20,948 nucleotides of DNA from IMG/VR virus record IMGVR_UViG_3300032236_000821, positions 1-20,948 of that record; one strand, written 5' to 3'. The notes below the pieces were generated by a model. The model worked only from the letters and a program-made list of their open reading frames with translations. It did no database searches and had not been told where the DNA came from. Below, piece after piece: positions 1 to 19,549 of the stretch. The position numbers were made by a program, and so were the translations under genes. Numbering within the stretch: position 1 is the first letter of the stretch; every line of letters begins with the position of its first letter. Source of the stretch: a virus.

Positions 1-156
1 AACAAGTGTTAATTCATTTTGGGCAATGCTAATTTTACCTGTACCAGAGTCATAGTATAGCGGAGCATTAGCGCCACTAACTTGTCCTGGAGGACCCTGC
101 GAGCCTACAACTAGTGGAACCCAATTTGCTCCATCGTAATATTTAAGTGTACTCAT
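1..156 (-). CDS. Collagen-like tail fibre protein, N-terminal fragment (runs off left edge)
   Basis: Only the first 52 residues are in the window; the frame is open to base 1. The protein begins MSTLKYYDGANWVPL and then has a short collagen-like stretch (GSQGPPG, residues 18-24). The start ATG (156-154) shares one base with the TAA of the upstream SGNH hydrolase gene (TAATG), so the two are probably translationally coupled. The opening MS-x-LKY-x-D followed by Gly-X-Y triplets matches the N-terminus of the 166-aa protein at 2402-2902, so the two look like paralogues sharing a short attachment module. A role as a fibre or fibre-tip component is inferred from this and from position. The missing C-terminal part would decide the function. 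Confidence 0.8.
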   Translation of the reverse strand, partial: MSTLKYYDGANWVPLVVGSQGPPGQVSGANAPLYYDSGTGKISIAQNELTLV

Positions 157-2402
157 TATAGCCTCGTAGTAATCTGCGTATTAATAATCTGGTTAGCTAT
201 TTCTTCTGCCAGAAGCCTATGACCTTCAGGACTAGGGTGAGCACCATCAGAAATAATCATAAAGTCAGTATTACCACTATTGTTTTGACTAGTTATATAG
301 CCAGTACCTGTAAATATACATGGACCAACTTCGGTAACAGTAGTTCCTGATGTAAGTGATATGTCTGGGTATTTATTTAAAGTTAGAGTATATGGACCAG
401 AACCACTAATAGCAGTAACAACTCTACGACCTCCCCAAGTTCCATAAATATTACCTAGGTCAACGGTAGCCCCAACTGAGATGTAGTTAGTAGTAACAAT
501 ATTAGAACTAGATGTAGAGTACGTGTAATTGCTGGACAGCGTTGTTGATGCTGGGGTATATCTGAGTGGAAGTTCCAATAAGTTAATAAATATACCGTTT
601 ACTTGACTATCAGCCATAGCAGTTTTAATAGCATCAGTTGCTTTATACCAGTTAACGTTAAGACTTTCTACACCAAATGATGGCAGCGTAGAAAGACCAA
701 TAATAATTGAGGTAGGAAATAATGCACGTATTGAACGAAAATAAGTAAGGATTTCAGTAGCAAGTCTAGTAGAGTCAAAGTTAAGGTCGTTGTGACCACC
801 AGCAACAACTATGATATCTGGGACTTTAGTTAACTTACTCAAGTCAGTAACGTTACGTGCTCTAAATATTGGTCTAGAACCACGTACCACTGAATCACCA
901 GCGTAATGTGCCTCAGCAGTAGTCGGTAAAGACCCGTAGTTTACACCGCGAGTAAGTAAAATGTTATTTCCTGGAGAGTAGTTTACAGTTACATACTCAG
1001 CTCCAATAAAAGCATTAAAAGGATATATAAGGGCTTTACCTGACTGACCTGTAGCAGACCCCGTAGCGCCGTTTGAAATTGTAAACTGAGTTGTGCTTAC
1101 AGATGTAATAACTTGACCAGGCAAGTTAAATTGTGTAGCTGTAAGCCCTGTAATACTTACCGTTTGCCCCACAGTATACAAGTTATTACTATTGCTAAAA
1201 GTATAGGTAACTACCCCACTAGAGCCCGATACCGCAGTAACGGCAGCGCCGCCAAAGTTTACTATATTATCCACTGTTGCAGTAGTAGATGAAGCGGTGA
1301 TATTAGTGGTTAAGTTTGCAGCTTGGCTCTGAGTATCGCTGATTGCAAGGAATCCAGTTCCACCTTGGGCAACGTTAAATATTTCATCAACTCCCAAAAG
1401 TTTTGAAGTAAGCGTTGCGTATCCATCCTTCAAAACTGTAGTAGAACCAGTACCTTCAGTAAATGAATCGCCTTGCCATAAGATGCTTGTTACTTTTGAA
1501 GGTGGCTTATAAATGCTAGCAGTAGGCTGTCTGTAGATTCCGTAAAAAGGTACAGGCGCAGAAAATGCTATAACTACTCTACGAGTAGTTCGTACTTCTT
1601 TAGCAACTGATGCAGTTTGACCAGTAACTGATGCTGTAAGCGAGCCTGAAATTTTAACTGTAAAAGTAGTAGTTCCAGTTACACTAGCCACAGTAACACC
1701 AGAAAGATTAAGAGAGCTAGTAGTCAACCCCGTAATACTAACGACATCTCCAACTGATAATGTGCTATTTGGGTTTGTAACAGTATACGTAACAGTACTT
1801 GTGCTAGTGCTAGCAACACTAGTTGCTGCAGTTACCACAAGTGGAGTAAACGTAGGGTCAACAAACTTAACAAGATTTCGGTATGTGCCTCCAGCACCAG
1901 ATGGACCAAACGATACATAACTAGAATTTACAGGCTGACCATCTATAAAAATCATACCCTTGTTGGTTGACGCAGCATCTTTATAGGCAATTTCAAACTG
2001 AGAACCGTCGTAGTCAAATTCAACTGAATAAGCACCGCCATCAAATGGGTAACCATTATTAAGTGAGCCTTGTACAGCAGTATAATCTGGAGCAGTTGTA
2101 CCAGCAGATTTCATTACATTTCCGTGGTATAAAAAGTAAGGTGATTTACTAGCATCAAAAAGACGACTAAACCCAGTACCTGTACCCGTGGCTGTACCTG
2201 GGTAAACTAAAACAGAGTTTGTTATTATTGCAGCAGTAGTCTGAGTAATAGTAGGCGGGTTAGTCATAACAGACAGACTTTGTAGAGAGTCTGTGTATGT
2301 GCGTTTAGGCAAAGTATATCTACCAGGTAATACCTTATTTAAGCCAGCATATTTAGCGTCCGACTGCGCTTTTGAATAACTAGGTACGTCAAGAATTCCC
2401 AT
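156..2402 (-). CDS. SGNH/GDSL-type hydrolase tail protein with inserted beta modules
   Basis: A 748-aa protein with the blocks of the SGNH (GDSL-like) esterase fold widely separated: block I WQGDSFTEG (Ser313), block II NVAQGGTG (Gly348), block III AGGHNDLN (Asn538) and block V SDGAHPSPEGH (Asp719, His722). All expected catalytic residues are present, so it is probably an active esterase or deacetylase acting on surface glycan; this is inference from the family. The N-terminus (PSYSKAQSDAKYAGL) resembles fibre attachment regions. Residues about 186-266 form a beta module with VGDVVSITGL. Residues about 365-505, between blocks II and III, hold a module with IGAEYVTV, LTRG and AHYAGDSVV, which is itself split by a second module (VGQTVSITGL). 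A further beta-rich stretch (about 634-695) lies between blocks III and V. Both gene boundaries are TAATG overlaps. Confidence 0.85.
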   Translation of the reverse strand: MGILDVPSYSKAQSDAKYAGLNKVLPGRYTLPKRTYTDSLQSLSVMTNPPTITQTTAAIITNSVLVYPGTATGTGTGFSRLFDASKSPYFLYHGNVMKSAGTTAPDYTAVQGSLNNGYPFDGGAYSVEFDYDGSQFEIAYKDAASTNKGMIFIDGQPVNSSYVSFGPSGAGGTYRNLVKFVDPTFTPLVVTAATSVASTSTSTVTYTVTNPNSTLSVGDVVSITGLTTSSLNLSGVTVASVTGTTTFTVKISGSLTASVTGQTASVAKEVRTTRRVVIAFSAPVPFYGIYRQPTASIYKPPSKVTSILWQGDSFTEGTGSTTVLKDGYATLTSKLLGVDEIFNVAQGGTGFLAISDTQSQAANLTTNITASSTTATVDNIVNFGGAAVTAVSGSSGVVTYTFSNSNNLYTVGQTVSITGLTATQFNLPGQVITSVSTTQFTISNGATGSATGQSGKALIYPFNAFIGAEYVTVNYSPGNNILLTRGVNYGSLPTTAEAHYAGDSVVRGSRPIFRARNVTDLSKLTKVPDIIVVAGGHNDLNFDSTRLATEILTYFRSIRALFPTSIIIGLSTLPSFGVESLNVNWYKATDAIKTAMADSQVNGIFINLLELPLRYTPASTTLSSNYTYSTSSSNIVTTNYISVGATVDLGNIYGTWGGRRVVTAISGSGPYTLTLNKYPDISLTSGTTVTEVGPCIFTGTGYITSQNNSGNTDFMIISDGAHPSPEGHRLLAEEIANQIINTQITTRL

Positions 2403-2902: not shown

Positions 2903-3096
2903 GCTGAACCACCATCTACCAAAGTAGTGTAAGTAGTGTCATTAGGGTCAGCCCAAACTACAGAAGTAGAAGGAGCTGTTGTGCTTATTACAACTCCTGG
3001 AGGACCCACTGGACCTTGAGGACCAGTAGTGGTACCGCTAACAATTACATTACTAGGGGTACCAGGAGAGTTAATAACAACTACGCTATCGCTCAT
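2899..3096 (-). CDS. Small collagen-like virion protein (65 aa)
   Basis: A 65-aa protein with a central collagen-like segment (GPQGPVGPPG, residues 25-34) flanked by short Val/Thr/Ser-rich stretches. The C-terminal part (VVWADPNDTTY) recalls the LWVDTTT segment after the collagen-like shaft of the next gene. The start overlaps the stop of the 473-aa gene (TAATG), and the stop overlaps the following start (ATGA). It is too short for a full fibre and may be a fibre connector or a small trimerising cap. The coding call rests on the tight junctions and the Gly-X-Y pattern. Confidence 0.75.
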   Translation of the reverse strand: MSDSVVVINSPGTPSNVIVSGTTTGPQGPVGPPGVVISTTAPSTSVVWADPNDTTYTTLVDGGSA

Positions 3097-4517
3097 TAGG
3101 AAACCTTTATAGAGAAGTTAGGAGTGGTCGTTGACATGTAATATGTAACACCTGACACTACATACGAACTAGTGCAGGTAACCGCAAACACATAAGTTCC
3201 AGTAACTGTAGGTGTTCCGTATACGGAACCTGCAGCGTGTCCAGCGTCAACTCCAGTGCCGTCTTTAGATAACTTAAGTCCAGTAGGCAAAGAACCACTG
3301 CTTACTGTGTAAGTTGGACTAGTTCCAGTAGCTGTAAACGTATAGGAATATGGAGTTCCAACCGTTGCTGTTTTTGTAGGGTTATCTGCTGTAAATGTAG
3401 GACCTTGGTAAGGTTGGTAAACAACTGGTGTAGGGTTGTCTACGGTTATTTGTCTGTTAGCAAATACTATGCCTCGTACGTAAGTTTGGTTGAACGTCCC
3501 ATCAACACTAGAAATCTGTAAGTCCCAAAAAGCCTTTAATGGAAAGTTATCTGTTTGGTCTGAAGTTAAAGACAACTGAATCTTACCATTAACTAAATCA
3601 ACAGCAGTAATAGTTGGAGATGCAATAAGTAAAGGTGAGCCTGGGTACGTACGTATTTGAGCTTGTAAGTTGTATCCTGTTAAGTTAAATGGGGTGTTAG
3701 AGCTGTTGTAAATATCAAATTCAATGCTCCAGGTATCACCTTGGGTAATAACAATATCATATACACCAACTGGGTCTGGTAGAGGGGTTCTACCTCTAAG
3801 GTTATTTTCAACGTAAACTCGTTCAGCCATAGTACTGTCATCAATTTCTTGAGGAACATAAATTGGCACAAGACGGTTAGTGGTGCGTGAGACTCGGCGA
3901 AGAGTACCTACTTCAATACGCCATAAACCAATATTTAAAGCAGAACATAGTTCTCGGTATTGTTCTCTTCTCTGAGCAACAATATTAGATAACTGGGTAA
4001 ACCGCTGTGCTCTAGGAATAGTAACGCCATCTGGGGCTTGAATATTAATATCAAAAGAGGCATCAGTTGCAAGCGCCCATAATGCCTCTATAGTGGCTAA
4101 TAAAGCCACAGGATACTCTTCTACTGGAGGAATAAGCGCTATGGTTATTTGTCTACCATAAGAGTCTGTGCGGTTGTCTGTGTGCTGTAGAACGGCTGTA
4201 TTAACAAAGTTGGTTAGTTCATTAGTTGTAAAGTAACGGTAATGCGTACCAGTAACTGCAATTACGGAGTTTTCTACTGGAGCAGTAGCAAAGTGCACCA
4301 TGCCTAGGTTTTCTTCTACCGTGTAATCTGTGCCTTGAGCTTTAGGAGTTCCATTGATGTACACAGCAAATCCGTTAGCACCAAAAGAATCTACAGGCTT
4401 TACACCTAAATAAAAGTCTTTAGTAACGCCATCACCAGTAAGGTTAATGGTAAATTGCTTAGCATTATCCCCAAGCTCTAGTCGAACTCTCGAAAGGAGG
4501 TCGGAAAGTACAGCCAC
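3096..4517 (-). CDS. Neck/adaptor-like virion protein fused to beta and Ig-like domains
   Basis: A 473-aa protein with three apparent parts. Residues 1-220 are mixed alpha/beta (LLSRVRLELGD at the start, then FTTNELTNFVNTAV and a helical LLATIEALWALATD segment), resembling head-tail adaptor proteins made after the capsid. Residues about 250-358 (ITQGDTWSIEFDIYNSS, FNLTGY, FWDLQISS) resemble the N-terminal domain of BppU-type baseplate/fibre proteins. Residues about 380-472 (VGTPYSYTFTATG, SGSLPTGLKLS, GTPTVTGTY) match the putative Ig (He_PIG) pattern. The start is GTG, six bases after a clear AAAGGAG site, and lies after the terminator at 4592-4612. It heads a tightly overlapping fibre operon. 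The role of connecting neck to fibres is inference. Confidence 0.75.
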   Translation of the reverse strand: MAVLSDLLSRVRLELGDNAKQFTINLTGDGVTKDFYLGVKPVDSFGANGFAVYINGTPKAQGTDYTVEENLGMVHFATAPVENSVIAVTGTHYRYFTTNELTNFVNTAVLQHTDNRTDSYGRQITIALIPPVEEYPVALLATIEALWALATDASFDINIQAPDGVTIPRAQRFTQLSNIVAQRREQYRELCSALNIGLWRIEVGTLRRVSRTTNRLVPIYVPQEIDDSTMAERVYVENNLRGRTPLPDPVGVYDIVITQGDTWSIEFDIYNSSNTPFNLTGYNLQAQIRTYPGSPLLIASPTITAVDLVNGKIQLSLTSDQTDNFPLKAFWDLQISSVDGTFNQTYVRGIVFANRQITVDNPTPVVYQPYQGPTFTADNPTKTATVGTPYSYTFTATGTSPTYTVSSGSLPTGLKLSKDGTGVDAGHAAGSVYGTPTVTGTYVFAVTCTSSYVVSGVTYYMSTTTPNFSIKVS

Positions 4518-5067: not shown

Positions 5068-6138
5068 TTAGTTGGTTTCTGCAACCACGATTGCCTGGTC
5101 GGTGATTAGACCAAGACCGAAGATTGAGTACCATGCAAGTGCATGCTCACGTCCGAAGTCTAGGATACCACCATCGCGCAACTCAACTGGAAGTGAGATA
5201 GCGTGACCGAAAGCGTTGTCGCCGATGAAGATTGCTGAGTAGCGGTCAGCATTACCGTTACCTACTAGAGTGTTAGGTGTAGTGTAGCCACCACCAGCAG
5301 CAATAGTTGGGTTAGCAACTGCAGTATCTGTTGACCATGTTGAACCAGCACCGTTAGGAACCTTGAGAACCTGAGTGGTCTCAATGAATACGGTGTCGTA
5401 CAAACGGCCGATTTCACCAAGCATGAAGTTACCAGGAGCGGCATACTTCGTGACTTCGATGAACTCTGGAAGGTCGCGTAGACGACGGCTCTGGTGAGGG
5501 TGTACGAAAGCAACGTATGTTTCACCCAAACGTGGGATGTTACGTGTTGCTAGGGTCTCAACAGCATCCTTGACAGTCTTGGTTGTCAAGTATGATGAGC
5601 CTGTAAGACCTGTACGTGCGGTAGCAGTTGTACCGTATGCGTACCAGTTGTTTACACCCTGCTGGTTGGTGCGGTCTTCACCGTAGATTACAGAAGTCGC
5701 ACCGTAAAGGGTGTCGCGTGAAATCTGGTCTAGGTAGATTGCCATGTTGCGACCTAGAAGACGTGAGGCAGAAGCCATAACATCATCGAAGGAAGCATTA
5801 AGCAATAGTTCCGAAACAGCAAGCGCGTAGCCGTGCTCCGAAACTGTGATGCTGAACTGCTGTGCAGTCAAAGCATTTGTAGTCATACGTACACCTTCAA
5901 CCAATGGCTGTGCAAAGCCAAGGTTGTTGTAACGCATGAAGTTAATCTGCAAACCAGGTGCAACACCTAGTTCGGTCTTCTTTACAGCGAACTGTTCGAA
6001 ACGCAGGATTGGCATTGCCTGGAAAAGGATTTCCTTTGACCAAATCTGCTGAATCGCCTGAGTTAGCTGCGAGTTTGTGCCTGAATAGGCGGTTGGTGAC
6101 GCGGCGAGATTGCCTGTACCTGTTAGTGCGCTAGCCAC
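5068..6138 (-). CDS. Major capsid protein, N4-gp56-like
   Basis: A 356-aa protein in the expected place after the scaffold gene. Segments typical of the N4-gp56 capsid family (HK97-fold shell proteins) are visible: QIWSKEILFQAMPILRFEQF near residue 31, GLQINFMRYNNL, the central SASRLLGRNMAIYLDQISRD region, and VHPHQSRRLRDLPEFIEVTKY followed by GEIGRLYDTVFIETTQV. No signal peptide or fused domain is seen, and the length is normal for the family. The start is GTG with an AGGAG site six bases upstream; base composition here is smoother and less repetitive than in the fibre genes. It shares a probable transcript with the scaffold gene 43 bases upstream and ends in the GC-rich hairpin at 5033-5056, fitting high expression. 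Confidence 0.85.
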   Translation of the reverse strand: MASALTGTGNLAASPTAYSGTNSQLTQAIQQIWSKEILFQAMPILRFEQFAVKKTELGVAPGLQINFMRYNNLGFAQPLVEGVRMTTNALTAQQFSITVSEHGYALAVSELLLNASFDDVMASASRLLGRNMAIYLDQISRDTLYGATSVIYGEDRTNQQGVNNWYAYGTTATARTGLTGSSYLTTKTVKDAVETLATRNIPRLGETYVAFVHPHQSRRLRDLPEFIEVTKYAAPGNFMLGEIGRLYDTVFIETTQVLKVPNGAGSTWSTDTAVANPTIAAGGGYTTPNTLVGNGNADRYSAIFIGDNAFGHAISLPVELRDGGILDFGREHALAWYSIFGLGLITDQAIVVAETN

Positions 6139-7089: not shown

Positions 7090-8820
7090 TTATTTTTCAT
7101 AATCCGTTGGAACTCTTCTATTAGGTAGAGTTGTTCCGTAGGCTTTTGTGACCAAGTCAACACGCAGTTGCTGCTCTGCTACTTGGCTTTGGATTGCTGC
7201 TTCATCAAGAATTGGAGGCATACCAGGTGCTGGAGCTCCGCCAGGGGCACCAGGAGTTCCCATATTTCCACCCATAGATGGGTCTACAGGAGTAGGTTGA
7301 CCACCAACTCCACCTGAGAGCATGCCTGTTAGTTCAGCAATTTGCTGTTCAATCTGAGTTTGTACAAGTTTCAACGCGCCGTCTGCCTTAGCATCCTGCA
7401 TAAGTTCTGCGCGAATCTCATCAAGCTTTTCATCTGGGAATTCTTCACCAAGAGTACGAAGAGCACCAACTTTAGACTCAAGACCCAAAGACATCTTTGA
7501 CTGGACTTCGTTGATAATAACCAACTTGTCAAGCGGTAGTGGAGGTGGAAAGTGTACGTAAGACTTGTAGGTTAATGGGTCATTAACATCCAACTGTACA
7601 GATTCACCTGGAGACGGTGGAACTTCTTGAGTTGGGTCCCAAGTAAATGTTTCTGGCTCTTTCAGGGCAAGGTTCAGAAGCACTAACTCATTAATACGCT
7701 GAATACCGTATGCGTACTGAATAATCTTCTGGTGGTACTTATTCATCAAAGGCTGGAACTGAATAGAAAGTGCAACGCCTGAGGTATTAGAAATCTGCTG
7801 TGACATACCAAGAGCAGTCTCAGGAACACCCGTCATTTCGTGCATTGACTTCTTGAGTAGTGCTAGGAAGTCCATAGCGCCCTTTAGACCCTGTGCGCCA
7901 CCCTCAAGGTTCTCTACACGGGCATCCTTAGGTAGACCGCCCCATACCTTGTTAGCGCCCTTTTCTAGTTGGGAAGCCTTAGCGCCAATAATTACCGTTA
8001 CTGGTGCGGCATGGTAATTAACAATATCGGCAACATCAGTAGCCACTTCGTTATATGTACGGTTAATTGGAATAATATCATAGCAATCAGACAAGCCCCA
8101 AGGACTACCAGAAATACGCACGTTAGGAATGTGGATAACTGGAATAGTACCAAGCGGGTTAGGGCGCGAATCAATAAGTTCATCGTTGATATATTCTTCG
8201 ATAATGTCATCAGTCAAAATCTCCGTATACGTAAAGACCTGACGAGTACCTTCTAGAGATGTTCCCCAGAAGCGGTACTTGAGCTTAAATCTGATAAGCC
8301 TGTCGCGGTCGTGTGGATGGAACTCAGGGAAACAGAATGACGCGTTAAGCGGGAGGATTCGGACTCTTCCTGGATGAAGTCTACCCACAGAATCAACATA
8401 CGCCTCTTCGTAAGCAACCTTGACGAAACAGTCACCTGATACTCCTCCTTGTTGTCCCATTTCCCATAATACAGTAGGCTTGTTATTGTCTACTTCCCAT
8501 ACTCTTTCAAGAAGATACGGAACAATTGCTGCGGTTTCTTTAGGGCTGGTAAAGTTAACACCATTACCAAAAGCAAAGTTAATATTATAGTCCGTTATAG
8601 CACGGTAGTAGTTAAGAACCATTTGGGTCTCACCAGCCTGACGGCGGTAAGAAGTATGGTGACCTAGGTACATAGCCCAGTTAAGTGAATAACGGTTTAG
8701 ACGAGGACCGTGAACCTCAAACTCTTCATCTGCAAGTTCTACAAGACCAAGAGGGGAAATTGAAATAGTGAGGTCGGAAGAAGCCGCCCTATAACTGGGT
8801 GGCGAAAAATCAATACTCAC
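7090..8820 (-). CDS. Portal protein, SPP1 gp6-like
   Basis: A 576-aa protein that would form the dodecameric ring at the packaging vertex, through which DNA enters and leaves. Family-typical features are visible: an N-terminal helical segment with MVLNYYRAITDYNINFAFGN (residues 68-87), the WEMGQQGGVSGDCFVKVAYE strand region (119-138), PNPLGTIPVIHIPN (220-233), GLSDCYDIIPINRTYNEVATD (242-262), and LLKKSMHEMTGVPETALG (321-338), the usual 'stem' helix before the crown. The last 80 or so residues are Gly/Pro/Met-rich and likely disordered. The start is GTG with AGAGG upstream. It lies 44 bases after the 103-aa gene and downstream of the terminase, the standard packaging order. Length is within the usual portal range. 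Confidence 0.9.
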   Translation of the reverse strand: MSIDFSPPSYRAASSDLTISISPLGLVELADEEFEVHGPRLNRYSLNWAMYLGHHTSYRRQAGETQMVLNYYRAITDYNINFAFGNGVNFTSPKETAAIVPYLLERVWEVDNNKPTVLWEMGQQGGVSGDCFVKVAYEEAYVDSVGRLHPGRVRILPLNASFCFPEFHPHDRDRLIRFKLKYRFWGTSLEGTRQVFTYTEILTDDIIEEYINDELIDSRPNPLGTIPVIHIPNVRISGSPWGLSDCYDIIPINRTYNEVATDVADIVNYHAAPVTVIIGAKASQLEKGANKVWGGLPKDARVENLEGGAQGLKGAMDFLALLKKSMHEMTGVPETALGMSQQISNTSGVALSIQFQPLMNKYHQKIIQYAYGIQRINELVLLNLALKEPETFTWDPTQEVPPSPGESVQLDVNDPLTYKSYVHFPPPLPLDKLVIINEVQSKMSLGLESKVGALRTLGEEFPDEKLDEIRAELMQDAKADGALKLVQTQIEQQIAELTGMLSGGVGGQPTPVDPSMGGNMGTPGAPGGAPAPGMPPILDEAAIQSQVAEQQLRVDLVTKAYGTTLPNRRVPTDYEK

Positions 8821-9722: not shown

Positions 9723-11306
9723 TTATCTGCTAAAAAACGGATTGCTAGTCTGTTCTACTTCTGGCATGGAATAATCCAGGGTTAGGCTACATGCAATCGC
9801 TAAAGAGTCAGCAAAGTCGTCATGTGCATGCGCCTCATCAGGAGCAGCAGCCATGAAATTAGGACCCTTAAACTTGGTCTCTAGGTCTGTCATCTGCTGG
9901 TAAAACCGCTTATATGAGCGTAATCTACGTGTTTTAGCGTGGGCAGGAAATCCTACTAGACGGCGGTCAATAAGGGCTTTAAGGTGCTTCCAGCGCTTTG
10001 ACTGCTCTGTCGGGCTACTGGTTAGGGAAATAACCTCTGCTCTAGGTAGTAGCAGTTTAAGGCGTTGGGCTACTGCGTCACCGACACCGTTTGCATCAAC
10101 TCCGACTAAGAATACATTGTAGTTCTCAAGGAAGTTTACAATTTGGAAGTACTGGTCTTCCCAGTCGTCTCCCTGAATCTCTAGCCAGTTGAGTACTCGG
10201 TGGTCGTAGTAACCAAATTCATCAGGGCGGTCCCAGTCTACCCATACCACAGTAACAACTGTAGAGTCCATCTTACGAGCGGGGTCAATTCCAACTACAA
10301 CTGGGGTACGGTAGTAAGCCTTAACGACCTCCATACTGGTATCACCAAGTTCATCCATAACCGTAGAGGTAATGAACATACCCTTTTCGAGCATCCATTT
10401 GCAGTTGTACGACATCTGGAACTCATCAGAGTCATCACCGATACGTAGCATTTCTTTTTTAATGAACTTGCCGTAGTCTTTGTTGACCTTGGCTACTTCC
10501 TGCCAATTCCACTCAAAGTGGTTTTTTCGGGAACGTGATGTCTGTCTACGTTTATTTAACTGAATAGACTTATAAAAGTTGTTCTTGACGTTTGCTGGGG
10601 TTCCAGTCTTAACCATAGTACCTGAGTAGTACGCCAACATAGGAGAAATAGATTTAGCGACCATGAAGTCATCTGCACCCTGGCACTCGTCAATAACAAT
10701 GAGGTGAAACGACTTAGACTCAATCTTAGCGCGAGGGTTCGCGGTCATCATCATAAGGCTACTGCCCGAGTTTTTAAGTTTGATTTGGCGGGTAATACCA
10801 GGTACCTTACCAAGAGAGTCATCAATCTCAGGGTCACCAAGGATATCTTGTGCATGCTCAGAAGTAAGTCGGTTTACAGTTCTACCGAATAGGGTTTCTA
10901 CCTGACCTTCAACAGGAGCAAACATACCAATCCAGATACCATCTTTAAACTTACCTAGTAGGTCTGGATACATCTTTGCAAGACGTGGGAGTAAAACCAT
11001 AAGAGTGGCTACTGTGTTGGCTACTGTCTCAGATTTTCCTGACTGACGGGCTGCAAGAGCAGTAATTTCTTCGCCGTCACCAATAATGACTGATTCCATT
11101 ATACGGCGCGCTAGAGGGGCTTGGTAAGGGTGCAGTGAATGACCAACAAGAGTATCCATAAAGAGCATCATCTTGTCTACTAAAGCATTTACAAAATCTT
11201 TAGATAGTTCGTCCATCTCATCTTCAGGCTCATCCTGAAGAGGGATATCGTCAAAGTCTTCCTCTAATTCAAGGTCGTCTTCGTAGAAGAGATGTTGCTC
11301 GCTCAT
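9723..11306 (-). CDS. terL: Terminase large subunit (packaging ATPase and nuclease)
   Basis: A 527-aa protein. The ATPase domain has Walker A LAARQSGKSE (Lys91), Walker B HLIVIDECQGAD (Asp206, Glu207) and a KTGTP coupling motif at 233-237. The C-terminal RNase H-like nuclease has VVGIDPARKMDST (Asp341), LVGVDANGVGD (Asp404) and the acidic HAHDDFADSLA stretch (Asp496, Asp497, Asp500), giving the three metal-binding acidic positions. It powers translocation of DNA into the procapsid through portal and cuts the concatemer. The N-terminal 35 residues are unusually acidic. The start ATG 11306 has only a weak GGA upstream, but the next methionine is too far in. No small terminase is recognisable; the small genes just upstream are candidates only by position. 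Confidence 0.95.
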   Translation of the reverse strand: MSEQHLFYEDDLELEEDFDDIPLQDEPEDEMDELSKDFVNALVDKMMLFMDTLVGHSLHPYQAPLARRIMESVIIGDGEEITALAARQSGKSETVANTVATLMVLLPRLAKMYPDLLGKFKDGIWIGMFAPVEGQVETLFGRTVNRLTSEHAQDILGDPEIDDSLGKVPGITRQIKLKNSGSSLMMMTANPRAKIESKSFHLIVIDECQGADDFMVAKSISPMLAYYSGTMVKTGTPANVKNNFYKSIQLNKRRQTSRSRKNHFEWNWQEVAKVNKDYGKFIKKEMLRIGDDSDEFQMSYNCKWMLEKGMFITSTVMDELGDTSMEVVKAYYRTPVVVGIDPARKMDSTVVTVVWVDWDRPDEFGYYDHRVLNWLEIQGDDWEDQYFQIVNFLENYNVFLVGVDANGVGDAVAQRLKLLLPRAEVISLTSSPTEQSKRWKHLKALIDRRLVGFPAHAKTRRLRSYKRFYQQMTDLETKFKGPNFMAAAPDEAHAHDDFADSLAIACSLTLDYSMPEVEQTSNPFFSR

Positions 11307-13278: not shown

Positions 13279-15183
13279 TTACAGACCGTAGTTGCGTGTC
13301 AAGTCAACAGACAAAGAGTTACCAGAGTTTGCAGCATATGCAGTAACAATGGTGTTCTTTGGACGAGCAACAAGGTTAGTAACTGTGGTAGTACCTGTTA
13401 CGTTAGCAATGGTGAACGTGAATCCACTTACAGCCGCGACTGTTGCATCACCAAGGTTATTGGCTACTGCACCAGAAGTACCGCCACTTAGGTTTACTGT
13501 ATCGCCAACACCAAGGGTGTGTGCAGTAGAGCCTGTGGTGAACTTCCAACCAGTTCCATCTGCTACAGCCGCTGTGACCGATAGGTCAGCAGTGAATGTC
13601 AAGTTACCTGTCTGTAGACCAGCAGCGCGAATCTTCTGGATTGCGTTTGTGGTTGTAAGACCAGTAACTGTAGGAGTGGTGTAAGTAGGTACATAAGCAG
13701 GGTAGCCACTGTCTTGGTTAGTAACACGGTCATGGTTATCCAAACCAGGTACCAAGTAGCTTGATGGGTAAGCATAAGTGTAAGACCAGCCATTGTCAGC
13801 AGCAGTGATGTAAGCAGTACCAGTGAATGTACCAGTGTTCTTAGCAACGCTACCGTATGCGGTAACACCGCTTAGAGCAGGGCTAGACGCAGTGTAGGTA
13901 ATGGTGTAAGTAGTAACAGCAGAAGCAGTTGTAGATGCGGTATTAATCGCAGTTACAGTTCCACCAGTTACACCAGATACGTTAATAACATCGTTAACCG
14001 CAAAACCATGAGGTGCATTGGTTGTGATTGTTACAGACGAAGCGCCAACAGAAATTGCAGAAATTGCAAATACTGGTGCTGGAACGCTGAACGTGTTTGC
14101 ATCAAGAACAGTAGCAGGCTTATCAATTACATTGAAACCAGCAACGCTTGAACTACCAACGCTTACGTTCTGACCTGAAACTAGGTTGTGAGGAGTAGCG
14201 GTTCTGTAGTTAATTGTGCGGGTAGTAGAAATTGTAAAGGCATTTGCTGAAGATACTACGCCAATTGCAGCAGGGTTAACAGTAAGTGTTCCTGTTCCAA
14301 TTGCAGTAATAACACTTCCTGTAGCAAGACCTGTAGCAGTTACACCCATGCCAACACTCACGCCAGCTGTTGCAACTGTGAATGTTACATCACCTTTTGC
14401 ACCAGCAACAGTCGGGGTTTGGCTAGTAGATACACTTGATACAACACCAGTAGCAGCGTTAATAGCCACAGTGTTGATACCATTAATAGCGTACTGCTTA
14501 ACAATTGTACCAACTTTGTTGGTTACAGCTTTTGTAAGAGGGCTGTTAAATACAATGCTTGTAGTACCAGTTGATGCAATTTGTACAGTATCAAAGTTGT
14601 AATCATTAGGAGCAATGCCCTGAATGGTTACAGTTTGACCAGCAACTAGACCATGACCTGTGCCAACAGTGAATGTTACCTGAGTACCATTTGAAGTTAC
14701 GTTGCTAGTTGCAACGCCTACTACACGAAGGTCACCATCAGTAGCATCTTTGTTAGGCTGAATTGGGTTAGTAGCGCCCCACTCGCGGGCAACACGTACG
14801 TTAGTCTGAGCGGTAGTAGGCAACCAAGTGGTGTCCCAAGGACTGTTAGAAACAAGTGACTGTTGGAAAACAGTACCTGAAACAGATGACGAAGACGTAG
14901 AGAACGCGGCTGGAGTCTTAACAGTAAAGATATTAGTACCAGTTACAGAAGCAACAACGGCTGGAGTACCAGCGCCTGTTCCTGAAGTTGGGTCGTAGTT
15001 AAGCCAAGCGTTAGAGAAGCCACTTGTAATAACTGGCTGACCAACAACAAGCTTATGTTCACCAGTAGTTGTGTAAGTAATTACAGCATTTGTGGTGTCA
15101 TTTGAAGCAGTAGCAGACAGTGAAAGTAATGGGTCTGTTACTGGTGGGTTGCTACGTGTGTAGCTACCTGAATCTTGTGCCAT
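13279..15183 (-). CDS. Large repetitive beta-module virion protein (634 aa)
   Basis: The protein is Thr/Val/Ala/Ser/Gly-rich, low in Lys and Cys, and built of repeated modules. The commonest has the core His-x-Leu-Val-x-Gly-Gln-x-Val: GEHKLVVGQPV (41-51), GHGLVAGQTVTIQGI (176-190), PHNLVSGQNVSV (331-342), PHGFAVNDVINVSGV (391-405) and AHTLGVGDTVNLSGG (555-569), each followed by a V-x-x-x...F-T-V strand. This resembles the FCCH-like repeat found in many phage structural proteins. Residues about 265-318 (SVGMGVTATGLATGSVITAI) are a second repeat type. Residues 504-530 (PTVTGLTTTNAIQKIRAAGL) look like a PASTA domain. An AAGGA RBS precedes ATG 15183. It is framed by its own promoter candidate and strong terminator, consistent with an abundant fibre or head-decoration protein. 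The exact role is unknown. Confidence 0.8.
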   Translation of the reverse strand: MAQDSGSYTRSNPPVTDPLLSLSATASNDTTNAVITYTTTGEHKLVVGQPVITSGFSNAWLNYDPTSGTGAGTPAVVASVTGTNIFTVKTPAAFSTSSSSVSGTVFQQSLVSNSPWDTTWLPTTAQTNVRVAREWGATNPIQPNKDATDGDLRVVGVATSNVTSNGTQVTFTVGTGHGLVAGQTVTIQGIAPNDYNFDTVQIASTGTTSIVFNSPLTKAVTNKVGTIVKQYAINGINTVAINAATGVVSSVSTSQTPTVAGAKGDVTFTVATAGVSVGMGVTATGLATGSVITAIGTGTLTVNPAAIGVVSSANAFTISTTRTINYRTATPHNLVSGQNVSVGSSSVAGFNVIDKPATVLDANTFSVPAPVFAISAISVGASSVTITTNAPHGFAVNDVINVSGVTGGTVTAINTASTTASAVTTYTITYTASSPALSGVTAYGSVAKNTGTFTGTAYITAADNGWSYTYAYPSSYLVPGLDNHDRVTNQDSGYPAYVPTYTTPTVTGLTTTNAIQKIRAAGLQTGNLTFTADLSVTAAVADGTGWKFTTGSTAHTLGVGDTVNLSGGTSGAVANNLGDATVAAVSGFTFTIANVTGTTTVTNLVARPKNTIVTAYAANSGNSLSVDLTRNYGL

Positions 15184-15359: not shown

Positions 15360-15626
15360 TCACCATTTGACTTTGTTAGCCCAATAAGCCGCAGACATTT
15401 TTCCCTTGGCAATATTCTTAGCATGGCGGGCTTTAAATGCCTCATTACGCTTTGAGCCATCAGGAGAACCTTTAACACCCTTTTGCCCAAAATGAATAGT
15501 TTTAACCTTGTCACCTTCTTTAGCTACAACAACGTGTGATTTAGTTGGGTGATTAGGAGTAGCCTTAGGCTTGTTGTATCCAGATACACCAGCACGTACT
15601 AAACGTGGGTCTTTCTGTGTAGCCAT
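15360..15626 (-). CDS. Small basic protein (88 aa), conserved-looking
   Basis: A Lys/Arg/His-rich protein with distinctive segments: GYNKPKATPNHPTKSHVVVA (residues 16-35), KVKTIHFGQKGVKGSP (40-55), then FKARHAKNIAKGKMSAAYWA (64-83). I recall this arrangement (KSHVVVAKEGDKVK-x-I-x-FG-Q...FKARHAKNI) from unannotated small proteins of many aquatic phages, but I cannot give a family name. The start overlaps the stop of the 36-aa gene (TAATG), making it the last gene of the long cassette. The high positive charge suggests contact with DNA or RNA, possibly packaged in the virion; this is inference. Confidence 0.8.
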   Translation of the reverse strand: MATQKDPRLVRAGVSGYNKPKATPNHPTKSHVVVAKEGDKVKTIHFGQKGVKGSPDGSKRNEAFKARHAKNIAKGKMSAAYWANKVKW

Positions 15627-15736
15627 TACTTCTTCCCCTTTTTAACTACCTTCTTAGCAAACTTCTTATTAGCAGCCGCTAGAGTCTTTTGACCATGCTT
15701 ATTCTTAGGCTGCTTACAGCCACATGTTGCACACAT
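15626..15736 (-). CDS. 36-aa basic protein with CxxCxC motif
   Basis: A 36-residue frame starting MCATCGCKQPKNKHGQ and continuing to a Lys-rich end (KKFAKKVVKKGKK). Cys2, Cys5 and Cys7, with His14, could hold a metal ion. It fits exactly between its neighbours: ATG one base after the upstream TAG (TAGTATG) and TAA overlapping the downstream ATG (TAATG). The same junction types occur throughout this cassette, which is the main evidence that it is translated. Function is unknown; the charge pattern suggests nucleic-acid binding. Confidence 0.7.
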   Translation of the reverse strand: MCATCGCKQPKNKHGQKTLAAANKKFAKKVVKKGKK

Positions 15737-15737
15737 A

Positions 15738-15971
15738 CTACTTACCCTTCTTATGTGGATTGGCTTTGTGCCATTTTTTAGTAGCAGATACGCCAGCCTT
15801 AACGGTCTTAGCGCCTGCTTTTTTGGTTAAATCAATTTTATCGTATTTGCCATTTTGCTTCTTAGAACCAGCATGGTCAACAACAACATCGCCTTTTTTA
15901 TCTTTATACACACGATGCACCTTGCCTGAAACCTTAATGGTGGCAGGGTTTTCCTTTTTCTTCTCAGCCAT
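15738..15971 (-). CDS. Small lysine-rich protein (77 aa)
   Basis: Very basic: MAEKKKENPATIKVSGKVHR, then VYKDKKGDVVVDHAG, then a Lys-rich C-terminal half ending TKKWHKANPHKKGK. The centre has an alternating Val/Lys/Asp pattern like a small beta hairpin or SH3-like fold, but no family is recognised. The start overlaps the upstream TAA (TAATG) and the stop is one base from the next ATG. A DNA- or RNA-binding role is inferred from charge only. Confidence 0.75.
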   Translation of the reverse strand: MAEKKKENPATIKVSGKVHRVYKDKKGDVVVDHAGSKKQNGKYDKIDLTKKAGAKTVKAGVSATKKWHKANPHKKGK

Positions 15972-16132
15972 TACTTTTTCTTCTTCTTAGCGGCGTTCAT
16001 ATTGTCTACAAGATTAGGATAAGGACGACCAGCAGCCTTAGCAGATGCTTTAGCCGATGCCTTCTTCTTAGGGCTGAGCTTCTTATCTTTTTTGGTGGGG
16101 TCTGGTTTTTCCCAGACTTCTTTCTTTGCCAT
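15971..16132 (-). CDS. Tiny lysine/alanine-rich protein (53 aa)
   Basis: Start ATG 16132 (MAKKEVWEKPDPTKKDKK) is chosen because AAGGA lies 7 bases upstream; the longer frame to 16210 would overlap most of the previous gene. The middle is Lys/Ala/Ser-rich (SPKKKASAKASAKAAG), then comes PYPNLVDNMNAAKKKKK. The composition resembles histone-H1-like tails and condensing peptides. It joins the next gene by TAATG. Function is unknown. Confidence 0.7.
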   Translation of the reverse strand: MAKKEVWEKPDPTKKDKKLSPKKKASAKASAKAAGRPYPNLVDNMNAAKKKKK

Positions 16133-16142
16133 GTTATATTCC

Positions 16143-16301
16143 TTAACTTTGGTGTTCACCGTTTGGTCCACGACCAGGTGCAGTATAACTAAGTATACTA
16201 GGACTTTCATTTGGATTCATTGGTAACTTACGCATACCAAAACGGGAGTCCCGAACCGTAATAGGCTCTGGAACAGCCTCAGAGAAGATTTTAGAGCGCA
16301 T
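16143..16301 (-). CDS. Tiny protein (52 aa)
   Basis: A complete 52-codon frame (MRSKIFSEAVPEPITVRDSR ... NESPSILSYTAPGRGPNGEH) that exactly fills an apparent gap. Its ATG overlaps the TAA of the 61-aa gene (TAATG), and its TAA lies 10 bases before the next ATG, partly within that gene's RBS. It is Pro/Ser/Arg-containing without a hydrophobic segment. No family is recognised. The evidence for translation is the junction geometry. Confidence 0.65.
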   Translation of the reverse strand: MRSKIFSEAVPEPITVRDSRFGMRKLPMNPNESPSILSYTAPGRGPNGEHQS

Positions 16302-16486
16302 TACTTATCCCACCTATCCCACTGTGCCGCTTGGGTAGGAATGCCTCTAATACCCCCTGTGACCTTTGTAATAGCATCACGGAAGTCTCTTGGTCTAGAC
16401 GCAGCCCTATTTTGCAAATAACGGGCTGTTGCCTGTTGTTCAAGGCTAGAGTTTGGCTGAAGATTGTTAGTTTTTTTCTTTGGCAT
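16301..16486 (-). CDS. Small basic protein (61 aa)
   Basis: The true start is most likely ATG 16486 (MPKKKTNNLQPNSSLEQQAT), one base after the upstream TAG (TAGTATG), with GGAGGG about 9 bases upstream. A longer frame to 16645 is an out-of-frame reading of the neighbouring gene. The protein continues ARYLQNRAASRPRDFRDAIT and ends QAAQWDRWDK. No family is recognised. It may be a minor virion component like its neighbours. Confidence 0.7.
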   Translation of the reverse strand: MPKKKTNNLQPNSSLEQQATARYLQNRAASRPRDFRDAITKVTGGIRGIPTQAAQWDRWDK

Positions 16487-16487
16487 A

Positions 16488-17213
16488 CTAACTACCCTCC
16501 GAGTATGAGCCGCCTTCACCAGGTCCTTTACCAGCACGGCGGGTATCCATCTCTTTATCTTGAGCAGAAGGAGTATTCCACTCAGCAGCACGAGCCGCTC
16601 CAACCTTCTTAGTAGTCTTTGTAGCAGATGCCTGCTGAGCAACAAGTAACTGGTTTGGAGTAAACGTCATTTCTCCAGCCTGTGGGAACTGAGAAGGCTC
16701 AGTACGAGAAGCAGTCTTTGTCTTATTATTAGTTGCGGGCTTTGCTTTGTGACCTGGGCGTTCTTTCTCCAGTTCAGCCATTCGTTTTGCTTTTGCAGCC
16801 TTACTGCCCTTTTCTTCTTCACGCTTATCCGCTGCAGTTTGGCGTGCCTTAGTATCTCTACGGGCGTTAGTCTTCTTGCCTCTGTCTAGTTTAAGAGACT
16901 CTCCTGTGGCGTGCTCTCTATCCTGACGACCGCCTTCTCGTTTTGCGGTATCTAATTTGATGGCTTCGCCTGTGGCATGTTCTCTATCATGCATCTTTAG
17001 GGCAGTCTTAAAGATGCCCTCTCTAGCACGAATGTCTGCGTGGAAAAGTTTTTGCTTATCCTCATTCTCTAACTCAGCAACAGACTTTCCTTCACCATTT
17101 TCTTTCTTCTTCTTCTTTTTCTTAGTTCTAACCATGCCATACAAGACACCAGCAGCCCGCGCGTTAGCGGTTGGTATCTTCATATTATTAAGATTGCTAG
17201 CATCATCAGCCAT
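16488..17213 (-). CDS. Highly charged protein with a 22-residue tandem repeat (241 aa)
   Basis: Start ATG 17213 (MADDASNLNNMKIPTANARA) follows AGGAG by 5 bases; the longer frame to 17264 is rejected. A run of seven Lys occurs at about residues 31-37. Residues 76-97 and 98-119 are two copies of a 22-residue unit starting DREHATGE-x-x-KLD, which look like a helical, coiled-coil-prone repeat. Lys/Arg/Glu-rich sequence continues to about residue 160, followed by a Thr/Gln-rich section (GEMTFTPNQLLVAQQASATK) and a Gly/Ser/Glu C-terminus. It looks like an extended scaffold-like or internal virion protein. No family is recognised. It sits between the HNH gene and the small basic genes. Confidence 0.75.
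   Translation of the reverse strand: MADDASNLNNMKIPTANARAAGVLYGMVRTKKKKKKKENGEGKSVAELENEDKQKLFHADIRAREGIFKTALKMHDREHATGEAIKLDTAKREGGRQDREHATGESLKLDRGKKTNARRDTKARQTAADKREEEKGSKAAKAKRMAELEKERPGHKAKPATNNKTKTASRTEPSQFPQAGEMTFTPNQLLVAQQASATKTTKKVGAARAAEWNTPSAQDKEMDTRRAGKGPGEGGSYSEGS
16857..16988 (-). repeat. Two tandem copies of a 66-bp coding repeat
   Basis: The 66-bp units 16988-16923 and 16922-16857 encode the two DREHATGE-x-x-KLD repeats. The DNA copies have diverged at many codons, so this is an old duplication within the gene rather than a recent one. Confidence 0.7.
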
Positions 17214-17226
17214 GATAACTCCTAAA

Positions 17227-17535
17227 TTATTTCTTTTTCTTAGGGGTAGCTTTTTTACCCGCACGACGTTTATTTTCTTTGGCTACGTTCTTGGAGTGAC
17301 TCATAGCCTGTAGGTTTGACTGGCTATCGTGACCTTTACGCCCGCCATTGTCTTTGTGGTCTACATCGGTGTTTTTAGACAGTTTCTTACCTGTCTTTTC
17401 TTCATAGTCAACACGTGCTTTATTACTGGAGGTAGTAACCCATTTACCGTTTACTTTTTTCTTGTAAACGTAAATAGGACGACCACCATTTTGAGAGGAG
17501 CCCTTATAAGGACCAAACTTTTTAACCTCAGCCAT
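17227..17535 (-). CDS. HNH endonuclease-like protein (102 aa)
   Basis: The HNH pattern is NTDVDHKDNGGRKGHDSQSN followed by LQAMSHSKN: Asp59-His60, Asn74, and His80 with Asn83. The usual metal-binding Cys pairs are missing, as in many short phage HNH proteins. The N-terminus has PIYVYKKKVNGKWV, a basic beta-hairpin-like stretch that may contact DNA. The C-terminus is Lys-rich. It overlaps the hydrolase gene by TAATG. Phage HNH proteins often assist packaging or act as homing nucleases; here the gene is in the basic-protein cassette, 6 kb from terminase, so its job is unclear. Confidence 0.8.
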   Translation of the reverse strand: MAEVKKFGPYKGSSQNGGRPIYVYKKKVNGKWVTTSSNKARVDYEEKTGKKLSKNTDVDHKDNGGRKGHDSQSNLQAMSHSKNVAKENKRRAGKKATPKKKK

Positions 17536-18131
17536 TACATGATTCTCGCAGACTGTAGAGTAGTTCCAATAGTTTTGTTATCAGTAAATTGCTTACTTGC
17601 ATTAGGGTTTCCTGATGCGCCACCCGCGCTACCAGTATTACCTACTCCACCATTAGGTACAAGATTTGGAGCAATGTAGTCTTTACCAGCAGAGCTTTTA
17701 TCAAAGTTAACACGGGCATAGCCACCTTTTCGGTCAGTTCTAACCATACTAGACCAGCCTAGGAACTGACCAGAACCTTTTCCACCCCATACCTGGTCGT
17801 ATCGAACCTTGCCTACCTTATTACCCTGGGCATCAGTAGAGTATACATAACCATTTCCAGCAGAAATTGCTACGTGACCATGACCAGTTTTGCCACCAGC
17901 ATAAAAGACTGGTACGCCAGCAGGAGGGGCAGAGGTCCTAACCCACTTTTTCTTGCTAGCATCATTATACCATTGTTTAGCATCATCGTAGTTTCCGCTT
18001 CTGCCATTTAACAGGTCTTCTTGGACAAACTGAGCACACATGGTTGAGTCATGGTTAGTACCCATCCACTTCTGTGTTCTTGCTAAAGCAGAATTAGGGT
18101 CAATACCTTTTGAGTAATCTGGGTCAGTCAT
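17535..18131 (-). CDS. CHAP/NlpC-like cysteine peptidoglycan hydrolase (198 aa)
   Basis: Catalytic-type Cys32 in TMCAQFVQEDLL and His86 in KTGHGHVAISAGNGYVY, with YSTD (Ser98, Asp100) as a possible third catalytic position. PAGVPVFYAGG before the His segment and FLGWSSM at the end of the domain are typical of CHAP/NlpC-P60 folds that cut peptide bonds in peptidoglycan. The domain covers about residues 10-130. The rest is Gly/Asn/Ser-rich (SAGGASGNPNASK) and likely flexible, with no recognisable cell-wall-binding domain. It overlaps both neighbours by TAATG. It could be the endolysin or a virion-associated lysin for DNA entry; its place in a virion-like cassette, away from the holin-like gene, slightly favours the latter. 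Confidence 0.8.
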   Translation of the reverse strand: MTDPDYSKGIDPNSALARTQKWMGTNHDSTMCAQFVQEDLLNGRSGNYDDAKQWYNDASKKKWVRTSAPPAGVPVFYAGGKTGHGHVAISAGNGYVYSTDAQGNKVGKVRYDQVWGGKGSGQFLGWSSMVRTDRKGGYARVNFDKSSAGKDYIAPNLVPNGGVGNTGSAGGASGNPNASKQFTDNKTIGTTLQSARIM

Positions 18132-19549
18132 TAGTAAATCCTAGGTACATATAGTTGTTGTTGACCAACACTTAAGTCTAAATGCGGCTTTGGCTTCGGC
18201 TTCTTTTCCTCTGGAAACTCTGGAGGTGGAGGTGGTAACTTATTACCTGGGTCTTCTGGAGTGCCCGCTGTTCCAGGAAGAGGTACTAAAGGTGGAATAA
18301 CTGGAGTGGTAGCAGAAGCACTAGCGCTTGGAGAAACGCTAGGCTGTGGGCTAGCCGAACGTTCTGGAGCAGAAGGTCTACTGGTTTTAGGGCTAGGTGT
18401 AGGTAGTATTTCAGGTTTAATAGTCGGTTTAGGTGTAGCAGTCCTACTAGGGGTAGGACTTACAGAAGGTGTAGGAGCAGGGCTCTTAGTAGGTTTAGGA
18501 ATAATAGGCTCACCAGTACGCTTAGGGACAGGGCTTTTTGTTGGCGCTGGAGTAGGAACCACTGGTGGTACTACAGGAACTGGTGTTTTCTTTGGCGCAG
18601 GAGTAGTCTCTGGCTTTGGAGGAATCGGAGGAACTACTGGTTTAATAGTTGGTCCAGGAGTAGGAACTGCTGGAACTGGGGTTTCCTTCGGTATTGGCGT
18701 TTTCTTTGGAATTGGCTTCTTGGGAGGTTTACGAGGCTTAGTTGGGTCATGGTAAGGCTTAGGTTCTCTAGCAGGACCTGGGGTTGGTCGTGTAAATGGT
18801 TGTTCACCTGGCTTCTTAATTGGCTTTTCACCTGGTCGTGTAAATGGCTTTGTAATTGGTTTTGTTCTTGTAGGCGCAAGAGTTTTAGGCTCGACTGTAG
18901 TTGGGTTAATTTTTGCGCCTCTTGGAGTAGCCGCATCTGGGGCATCATGTACTAAGTCTTCAAGCCACTTCTCAGCAGTATTAAACCCCTTTGACACTGC
19001 ATTTACGGCTTCACGAGCGTGTACAGTAATAGTAGGAGCAATAAGATGTTCCCCAGCCTCTATAGCTTTCTTACCTACTGCGCCAACAACTTTTCCAACA
19101 GGTAAAACGTTTACAAGGTCTAGACCCATTTGACCCCAGCTTTCTCCACCACCAGCCTGTTCGTAAGGGTCTTTTGCCTTGGTGTTCGTTGATAAATCAT
19201 TCTGAACTACATAACTAGCAAGTTTACCTAGTCTAGTAACACTTCTACCTGATTCAACTGCCGCACCAAATAATGGGTTCATAGAAGCAATTTGGTCACC
19301 TAAACTGCCTTGTGGCTTCCCCATATCCGCAGCATTTTGTTTAGCGCTTTTTGCCCAAGGTGGTTTAACTGGAGCAGGTCCTGGAGTAAAAGTTGGCTTA
19401 GGTGCTTTACTAGCTTTTGCTCTAGCATTGTTATCAGCGGTATTACCAATGTTTCCACCAACACCGTGGAAGTTAGCACCAACACCAGAATATAGGCTAC
19501 CAGCGTCAAAAGAGCTATTGCGTTTGCCCTTTTTCTTAGGAGTTGACAC
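18131..19549 (-). CDS. Proline-rich virion protein (472 aa)
   Basis: The start GTG 19549 shares its first base with the TAG of the 45-aa gene (TAGTG), with AAGGA ten bases upstream. The N-terminal 200 residues include a Lys-rich start (STPKKKGKRNSSF), a Gly/Asn section and a partly hydrophobic helical part (LDLVNVLPVGKVVGAVGKKAIEAG; EKWLEDLVHDAP). Residues about 220-455 are an extended low-complexity region of Pro with Thr, Lys, Ser and Val (motifs such as KPFTRPGEKPIKKPGEQP and TPSPSRTATPKP), which should form a stiff rod-like stalk. The last 17 residues (HLDLSVGQQQLYVPRIY) are an ordered-looking tip. A stalk or internal virion protein is likely by context; no enzymatic motif is seen. Confidence 0.75.
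   Translation of the reverse strand: MSTPKKKGKRNSSFDAGSLYSGVGANFHGVGGNIGNTADNNARAKASKAPKPTFTPGPAPVKPPWAKSAKQNAADMGKPQGSLGDQIASMNPLFGAAVESGRSVTRLGKLASYVVQNDLSTNTKAKDPYEQAGGGESWGQMGLDLVNVLPVGKVVGAVGKKAIEAGEHLIAPTITVHAREAVNAVSKGFNTAEKWLEDLVHDAPDAATPRGAKINPTTVEPKTLAPTRTKPITKPFTRPGEKPIKKPGEQPFTRPTPGPAREPKPYHDPTKPRKPPKKPIPKKTPIPKETPVPAVPTPGPTIKPVVPPIPPKPETTPAPKKTPVPVVPPVVPTPAPTKSPVPKRTGEPIIPKPTKSPAPTPSVSPTPSRTATPKPTIKPEILPTPSPKTSRPSAPERSASPQPSVSPSASASATTPVIPPLVPLPGTAGTPEDPGNKLPPPPPEFPEEKKPKPKPHLDLSVGQQQLYVPRIY

Follow-up and report, generated by a model that had tools for sequence, protein, structure and literature searches.

A phage SGNH esterase with catalytic blocks separated by inserted beta modules, one of which is nested in another

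P0001, a protein of a tailed phage from an environmental sample, is an intact SGNH/GDSL esterase in which inserted beta modules part the catalytic blocks, and one of these modules sits inside another (Table 1). Its gene lies in IMG/VR virus record IMGVR_UViG_3300032236_000821, the whole of which, 20,948 bases, forms the window analysed here. We consider it very probable that P0001 is a virion-borne CE2-like esterase that received beta domains in its surface loops, that a barrel was then nested within an outer module, and that such modules spread as cassettes. Of a nested domain insertion one usually sees only the end product. For P0001, nature offers the uninterrupted core, forms with a single insertion and the nested form, so that the order and the exact sites of insertion can be read and tested.

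The original prediction, made from the sequence, held that the catalytic residues are intact and widely spread, and this was borne out. We located a GDS motif with Ser313, Asn538, and Asp719/His722, with 409 residues between the serine and the histidine, and these four residues are invariant in a 24-row alignment with IMG/VR homologues. P0001 contains blocks I, II, III and V of the SGNH/GDSL hydrolase superfamily with their Ser, Gly, Asn and Asp-x-x-His. The block II glycine, given in the prediction as Gly348, is likely two residues off: G347 and G350 are nearly invariant in the alignment, position 348 is occupied by alanine or serine in several rows, and the oxyanion glycine is probably Gly350. 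The Pfam profile Lipase_GDSL_2 matched intact P0001 above the cut-off (7e-9) over residues 523-597 only, and PF00657 spanned 524-735 below its cut-off.

In CE2 enzymes an SGNH domain comes after a jelly roll (PMC2661963, PMC9487903). Model strands and Foldseek matches revealed the same plan in P0001. The AlphaFold2 model comprises a beta domain (strands 50-290) and then the SGNH core, with pLDDT mostly ~77-94, and the insert region 356-508 has pLDDT ~30-56. The top nine PDB chains matched by this model were all CE2-type esterases (E 7e-8 to 7e-7). The CE2_N profile matched weakly at 124-159 (E 0.03-0.06, 13.9-14.8 bits against a cut-off of 27.9), and for this reason we call P0001 CE2-like only. 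The fold match suggests that the catalytic residues meet in space, and residues and fold together point to SGNH chemistry.

Excision of the modules in silico improved the match to the hydrolase. The Lipase_GDSL_2 score rose from 36.9 bits for the intact protein to 40.5 without the inner module, 48.4 without the outer and inner modules, and 50.7 when the third module was removed too; the profile was covered from 3 to 136 in a single stretch after the second of these excisions and from 3 to 178 (of 178) after the last. In tblastn searches of 50,697 phage records, intact P0001 had no match, and P0001 with the modules removed matched 71 records; Gordonia phage esterases came first (E 1e-18), in a single alignment spanning 91% of the query. 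Random cuts of equal lengths were as good as the true excision of the three inserted blocks in 0 of 300 cases (single alignments with homologues from unrelated phages). As the true excision beat all 300 random cuts for each of the six homologues, the inserts are not a product of chance. The original proposal that the inserts lie outside the hydrolase core agrees with these scores, with the homologues that lack the modules, and with the low pLDDT of the insert region next to a confident core.

Natural empty sites were found at both levels. Three IMG/VR contigs (L002, L003 and L004) carry an identical allele of 674 aa, 82% identical to P0001 at the protein level, which has 3 residues in place of P0001 residues 385-459 (75 residues) and no further gap of more than 3 residues. 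The empty inner site is one allele common to three contigs and the filled one comes from one contig; whole-protein and alignment scans of IMG/VR recovered just these three contigs. At the other level, homologues of Gordonia, Streptomyces, Bradyrhizobium, Bacillus and T4-like phages are without module 1 and without the outer, inner and third modules. The third-module site is filled in L099, L100, L103, L105, L122 and L124. With empty sites at both levels and the excisions, the nesting has two levels: the inner module interrupts the outer module, the outer module interrupts the hydrolase, and each can be removed. The module within a module between blocks II and III was therefore correctly predicted, the three contigs lacking the inner part only.

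Residues 385-459, modelled with relatives of the module, gave six strands at pLDDT 91-97, with the first and last strands at the two ends. The limits of this confident model agree with the empty site within one or two residues; of the predicted limits (about 387-457) the position stood and the exact ends did not. The halves of the outer module that flank it had pLDDT ~44-61 in the same modelling. Thus, the inner module appears autonomous at the level of prediction, and recurrence elsewhere suggests that the outer module, whose modelled fold is of low confidence, is a unit. Alignments that mixed full proteins with module fragments (A7, A9, A10, A11) were misaligned and excluded from modelling. 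A search of the insert ends for terminal repeats or target duplications revealed just weak, chance-like repeats. The motifs are at residues 217-226 (VGDVVSITGL), 411-420 (VGQTVSITGL), 466-473 (IGAEYVTV), 483-486 (LTRG) and 498-506 (AHYAGDSVV).

Table 1. Features of the window and segments of P0001 (positions in the window; residues of P0001 in brackets).
Feature	Position	Strand	Evidence
P0001, 748-aa CE2-like SGNH esterase gene with four inserted beta modules	156..2402	minus	Intact ORF, ATG start; Pfam Lipase_GDSL_2 7e-9; Foldseek best matches CE2 esterases
N-terminal jelly-roll-like domain, first part (~50-188)	1839..2255	minus	Model strands; sub-threshold CE2_N at 124-159; conserved in phage homologues
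Module 1 (~189-270), VGDVVSITGL, inner-module family, before last jelly-roll strands	1593..1838	minus	HMM 2e-14; site empty in all aligned homologues but L004
Jelly-roll-like domain, end (~271-299)	1506..1592	minus	Alignment; model
SGNH core, first part (300-355): block I (GDS, Ser313), block II (GGTG, probably Gly350)	1338..1505	minus	Excision test; alignments; model
Outer module, N-terminal half (~363-384)	1251..1316	minus	Outer/third family HMM; continuous with C-terminal half in L004
Inner module (385-459), VGQTVSITGL, nested in outer module	1026..1250	minus	Absent in L002-L004; pLDDT 91-97; HMM 1e-20
Outer module, C-terminal half (~460-507), IGAEYVTV...TRG...AHYAGDSVV	882..1025	minus	Outer/third family HMM
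SGNH core, middle (508-614): block III (GGHND, Asn538)	561..881	minus	Pfam; excision test; alignment; model
Third module (~615-697), second copy of outer-module family, between blocks III and V	312..560	minus	HMM 1.8e-23; site empty in most homologues
SGNH core, last part (698-748): block V (DGAHP, Asp719/His722)	159..311	minus	Alignments
Capsid	5068-6138
Portal	7090-8820
Terminase	9723-11306

The VGDVVSITGL module predicted ahead of block I is present, and it belongs to the same family as the inner module. An HMM of this family found 112 copies in 91 ORFs from 82 sequences, in ~21 groups of otherwise unrelated proteins. Hosts named by profile are the tail sheath (phrog_23; L014) and baseplate wedge/J proteins (L066, L087), and once the module is cut out, the Bacillus phage SP-15 sheath aligns without a break at that site. 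Between unrelated hosts, the DNA of the copies is up to 80% identical. The view of the modules as cassettes that tolerate internal insertion fits this range of hosts, as well as the tail-tube proteins that carry the outer family. It is possible, and we put it forward tentatively, that the inner FCCH-like barrel serves uncultured phages as a dedicated cassette that is actively mobile and enters loops of sheath, baseplate, esterase and other cassettes with the frame kept, as a general means of adding surface-binding sites. Among bacterial genomes, 394 pattern matches to the inner family yielded 0 confirmed members. A tblastn search of isolated phages with single modules found nothing, which is weak evidence of absence as the search filters low-complexity sequence. 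In a cluster of 38 ORFs related to the tail sheath (L014, L022, L029-L068, L081 and others), full-length members have the inner-family module at about residues 109-177.

When the inner module was compared with the PDB using Foldseek, the matches were E1 FCCH and phage endosialidase structures (E 0.009-0.12), with E1 structures and the isolated FCCH domain 2v31 among the top ones (probability 0.94-1.0); the 'decoration-type' label in the prediction was the wrong comparison. The inner module also matched domains in baseplate and tail proteins from uncultured phages, with an rmsd of 1.4-2.4 Å for many of them. Any likeness to E1_FCCH (PF16190) would be one of fold, E1 enzymes topping the search at these modest E-values, and the two differ at the profile level, where matches remain below the cut-off: the Pfam profile did not match the P0001 inner module, it matched 5 of 29 family members (best 7.5e-6), and the matches seen scored 24-26 bits (24.4 for the L079 copy) against a cut-off of 29.5 bits.

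The predicted third beta stretch between blocks III and V is present and was identified by HMM as a second copy of the outer-module family, which is distinct from the inner family. The outer family is also present in tail-tube proteins that match Phage_tube_2, in L099 at the N-terminus, and in six further esterases, where it again lies between blocks III and V. A single homologous family comprising the outer and inner modules was rejected (hhalign probability 0.8%), though MAFFT tends to superpose both. The outer-family inserts in six tail-tube proteins (L131, L132, L134-L137) are at differing positions, and Phage_tube_2 was found in the three that were tested. A 245-aa protein of L004 (8002-8739) has a VGMAVNGTGI-type module in its middle, possibly of a third cassette family. 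In the libraries searched, neither the inner nor the outer family has a model matching above the cut-off, and describing both would better annotate many virion proteins.

The comparisons suggest an order of events in which the core came first, the third module entered in several lineages, the outer module and module 1 entered in the lineage of the window and L004, and the inner module entered in the window lineage. In a tree of the core, the six homologues with the third module form a clade (support 89) and the window pair is placed with a support of only ~12, a tree compatible with either one or two third-module insertions. Between the window and L004 alleles, dN/dS is 0.07-0.28 in all shared segments, a sign of constraint throughout that is least strong in the outer halves.

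The last step could also have run in the other direction, with an ancestral inner module that was deleted in the lineage of L002-L004 and no nested insertion in the window lineage. Only two alleles are available at this level, and the pair alone leaves the direction unfixed. However, we favour insertion because every other copy of the outer family, whether a third module, the L099 N-terminus or a tail-tube insert, is uninterrupted; moreover, what L002-L004 lack corresponds exactly to a single copy of a domain that also occurs independently. We therefore regard deletion as unlikely, and with either direction the window protein contains a nested module.

Two further explanations are less probable than deletion. 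Assembly could have joined two phage populations of the sample into a chimaera with the nested arrangement. A search of IMG/VR for a second contig with the inner-module junction found none, as would fit such a chimaera or a rare allele. Yet the reading frame runs through both junctions, the ORF is intact, the ends of the insert are those of an autonomous family, and the insert has the GC content of the whole window (0.44), slightly above that of its flanks (0.40-0.42), making a chimaera very improbable. The idea that the repeats are a low-complexity T/S/A-rich spacer, grown by slippage or intragenic tandem duplication, rather than functional domains, is slightly less probable still and largely refuted. 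It would accommodate the kinship of module 1 and the inner module (41% identical) and the tandem copies in some phage proteins, such as the doubled module of the sheath-related L081. But the inner module is nearer to copies in other phages (up to 60% amino acid identity) than to module 1 of its own gene, the sole match of more than 20 nt to it in the window DNA is itself, its motif set is conserved, and its fold is predicted with confidence.

Under the preferred explanation of successive insertions, P0001 would be an O-acetylesterase that is carried on the virion and acts on polysaccharide; its jelly roll would bind carbohydrate, and the SGNH domain (Ser313, probably Gly350, Asn538, Asp719/His722) comes after it. 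Surface loops would have received module 1 in the jelly roll, the outer module, which parts blocks II and III, and another outer-family copy, which parts blocks III and V; later, in the window lineage, the outer module would itself have taken up the six-stranded barrel. The enzyme may deacetylate host surface polysaccharide, by analogy with the SGNH receptor-binding proteins of Klebsiella phages and G7C, which are active esterases (PMC13123978). The inserts could lie next to the active site as a cap or rim, bind host surface glycan, add avidity, and change host preference, as suggested by the accessory domains of endosialidases and CE20 enzymes: the barrel of the K1F endosialidase is a glycan-binding site and a hotspot of host discrimination (PMC12632334), and the ancillary domain inserted in the SGNH domain of CE20 helps to form the active site (PMC12313940). 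The modules appear to travel as DNA cassettes that keep the reading frame, for which illegitimate or short-homology recombination would be the simplest route. Their families offer ready loop sites to study how accessory domains alter binding.

Among known systems, the CE2 esterases CjCE2A (2WAA), CtCE2 (2WAO) and BpEst2A (3U37) resemble P0001 in having a jelly roll and then an SGNH domain and were the best Foldseek matches; the D-x-A-H form of block V in P0001 is known from CE2 (PMC9487903). P0001 differs from them by its four extra beta modules and the sub-threshold CE2_N match. The gp4 esterase of Gordonia phage GOATification and its relatives (Bradyrhizobium BDU-MI-1, Streptomyces LibertyBell, Bacillus Mater, C-terminal parts of T4-like Hoc proteins) share the jelly roll and SGNH core, with 25-30% identity in one piece once the inserts of P0001 are removed, but no member of this group has the four modules. 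CE20 esterases likewise have a beta domain inserted in the SGNH domain, over the active site (PMC12313940), but theirs is a single-level GH2-like beta-sandwich, whereas P0001 has two-level nesting and different module families. Phage endosialidases (K1F, phi92) are virion enzymes with a small glycan-binding beta-barrel (PMC12632334), and some part of their structures matches the inner module with an rmsd of ~3 Å over 80 columns; they have a propeller catalytic domain and no detectable sequence similarity to P0001. Sheath proteins with extra domains (PMC9230969) and phage receptor-binding proteins with shuffled domains (PMC10684548) have been described. Inserted SGNH domains (PMC12313940) and nested insertion are already known, the latter as the A1-B1-C-B2-A2 pattern of ndhH and RNA polymerase (PMC13114784), which P0001 follows. 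The main text of that survey does not contain the words phage or virus, and P0001 adds natural empty sites for each level and modules that recur in unrelated virion proteins. What is new is the combination of a phage enzyme, two-level nesting, empty sites at each level, and module families across unrelated virion proteins.

In the window, the capsid gene is followed by fibre-like genes with collagen-like stretches and then, last, by the P0001 gene. The annotations of P0001 homologues are esterase, tail protein, or head outer capsid protein (Hoc) of the T4 type. With the gene placed after the capsid gene and next to collagen-like fibre genes, and with homologues that in part are Hoc (head) proteins, the designation as a tail spike is no more than putative; a tail fibre and a head fibre are both compatible with the neighbourhood and the annotations. 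Hoc-annotated T4-like homologues with the jelly roll and SGNH core would put such an esterase on the head. One such protein is the Hoc of Cronobacter phage Pet-CM3-4 (L096), a Hoc-annotated capsid protein of Enterobacter/Cronobacter T4-like phages that bears the same core.

Several other genes of the window are worth recording; those at 3096-4517, 13279-15183, 15360-17535 and 18131-19549 lie on the minus strand. A 634-aa protein (13279-15183) consists mostly of beta modules, 2 of them of the inner family, and matches E1_FCCH with 7.7e-6. A series of short lysine-rich proteins (15360-17535) includes one that looks HNH-like by eye (17227-17535), and a 472-aa protein with long proline/threonine-rich repeats (18131-19549) adjoins a CHAP-domain protein (17535-18131). 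One virion gene exists in three states near one loop region: without an insert in the window (3096-4517), with a GIVVGMSASGTG-type module in L004 (2036-3298), and with an inner-family module in L021 (862-2178). The window copy of this gene encodes an additional C-terminal He_PIG (Ig-like) domain.
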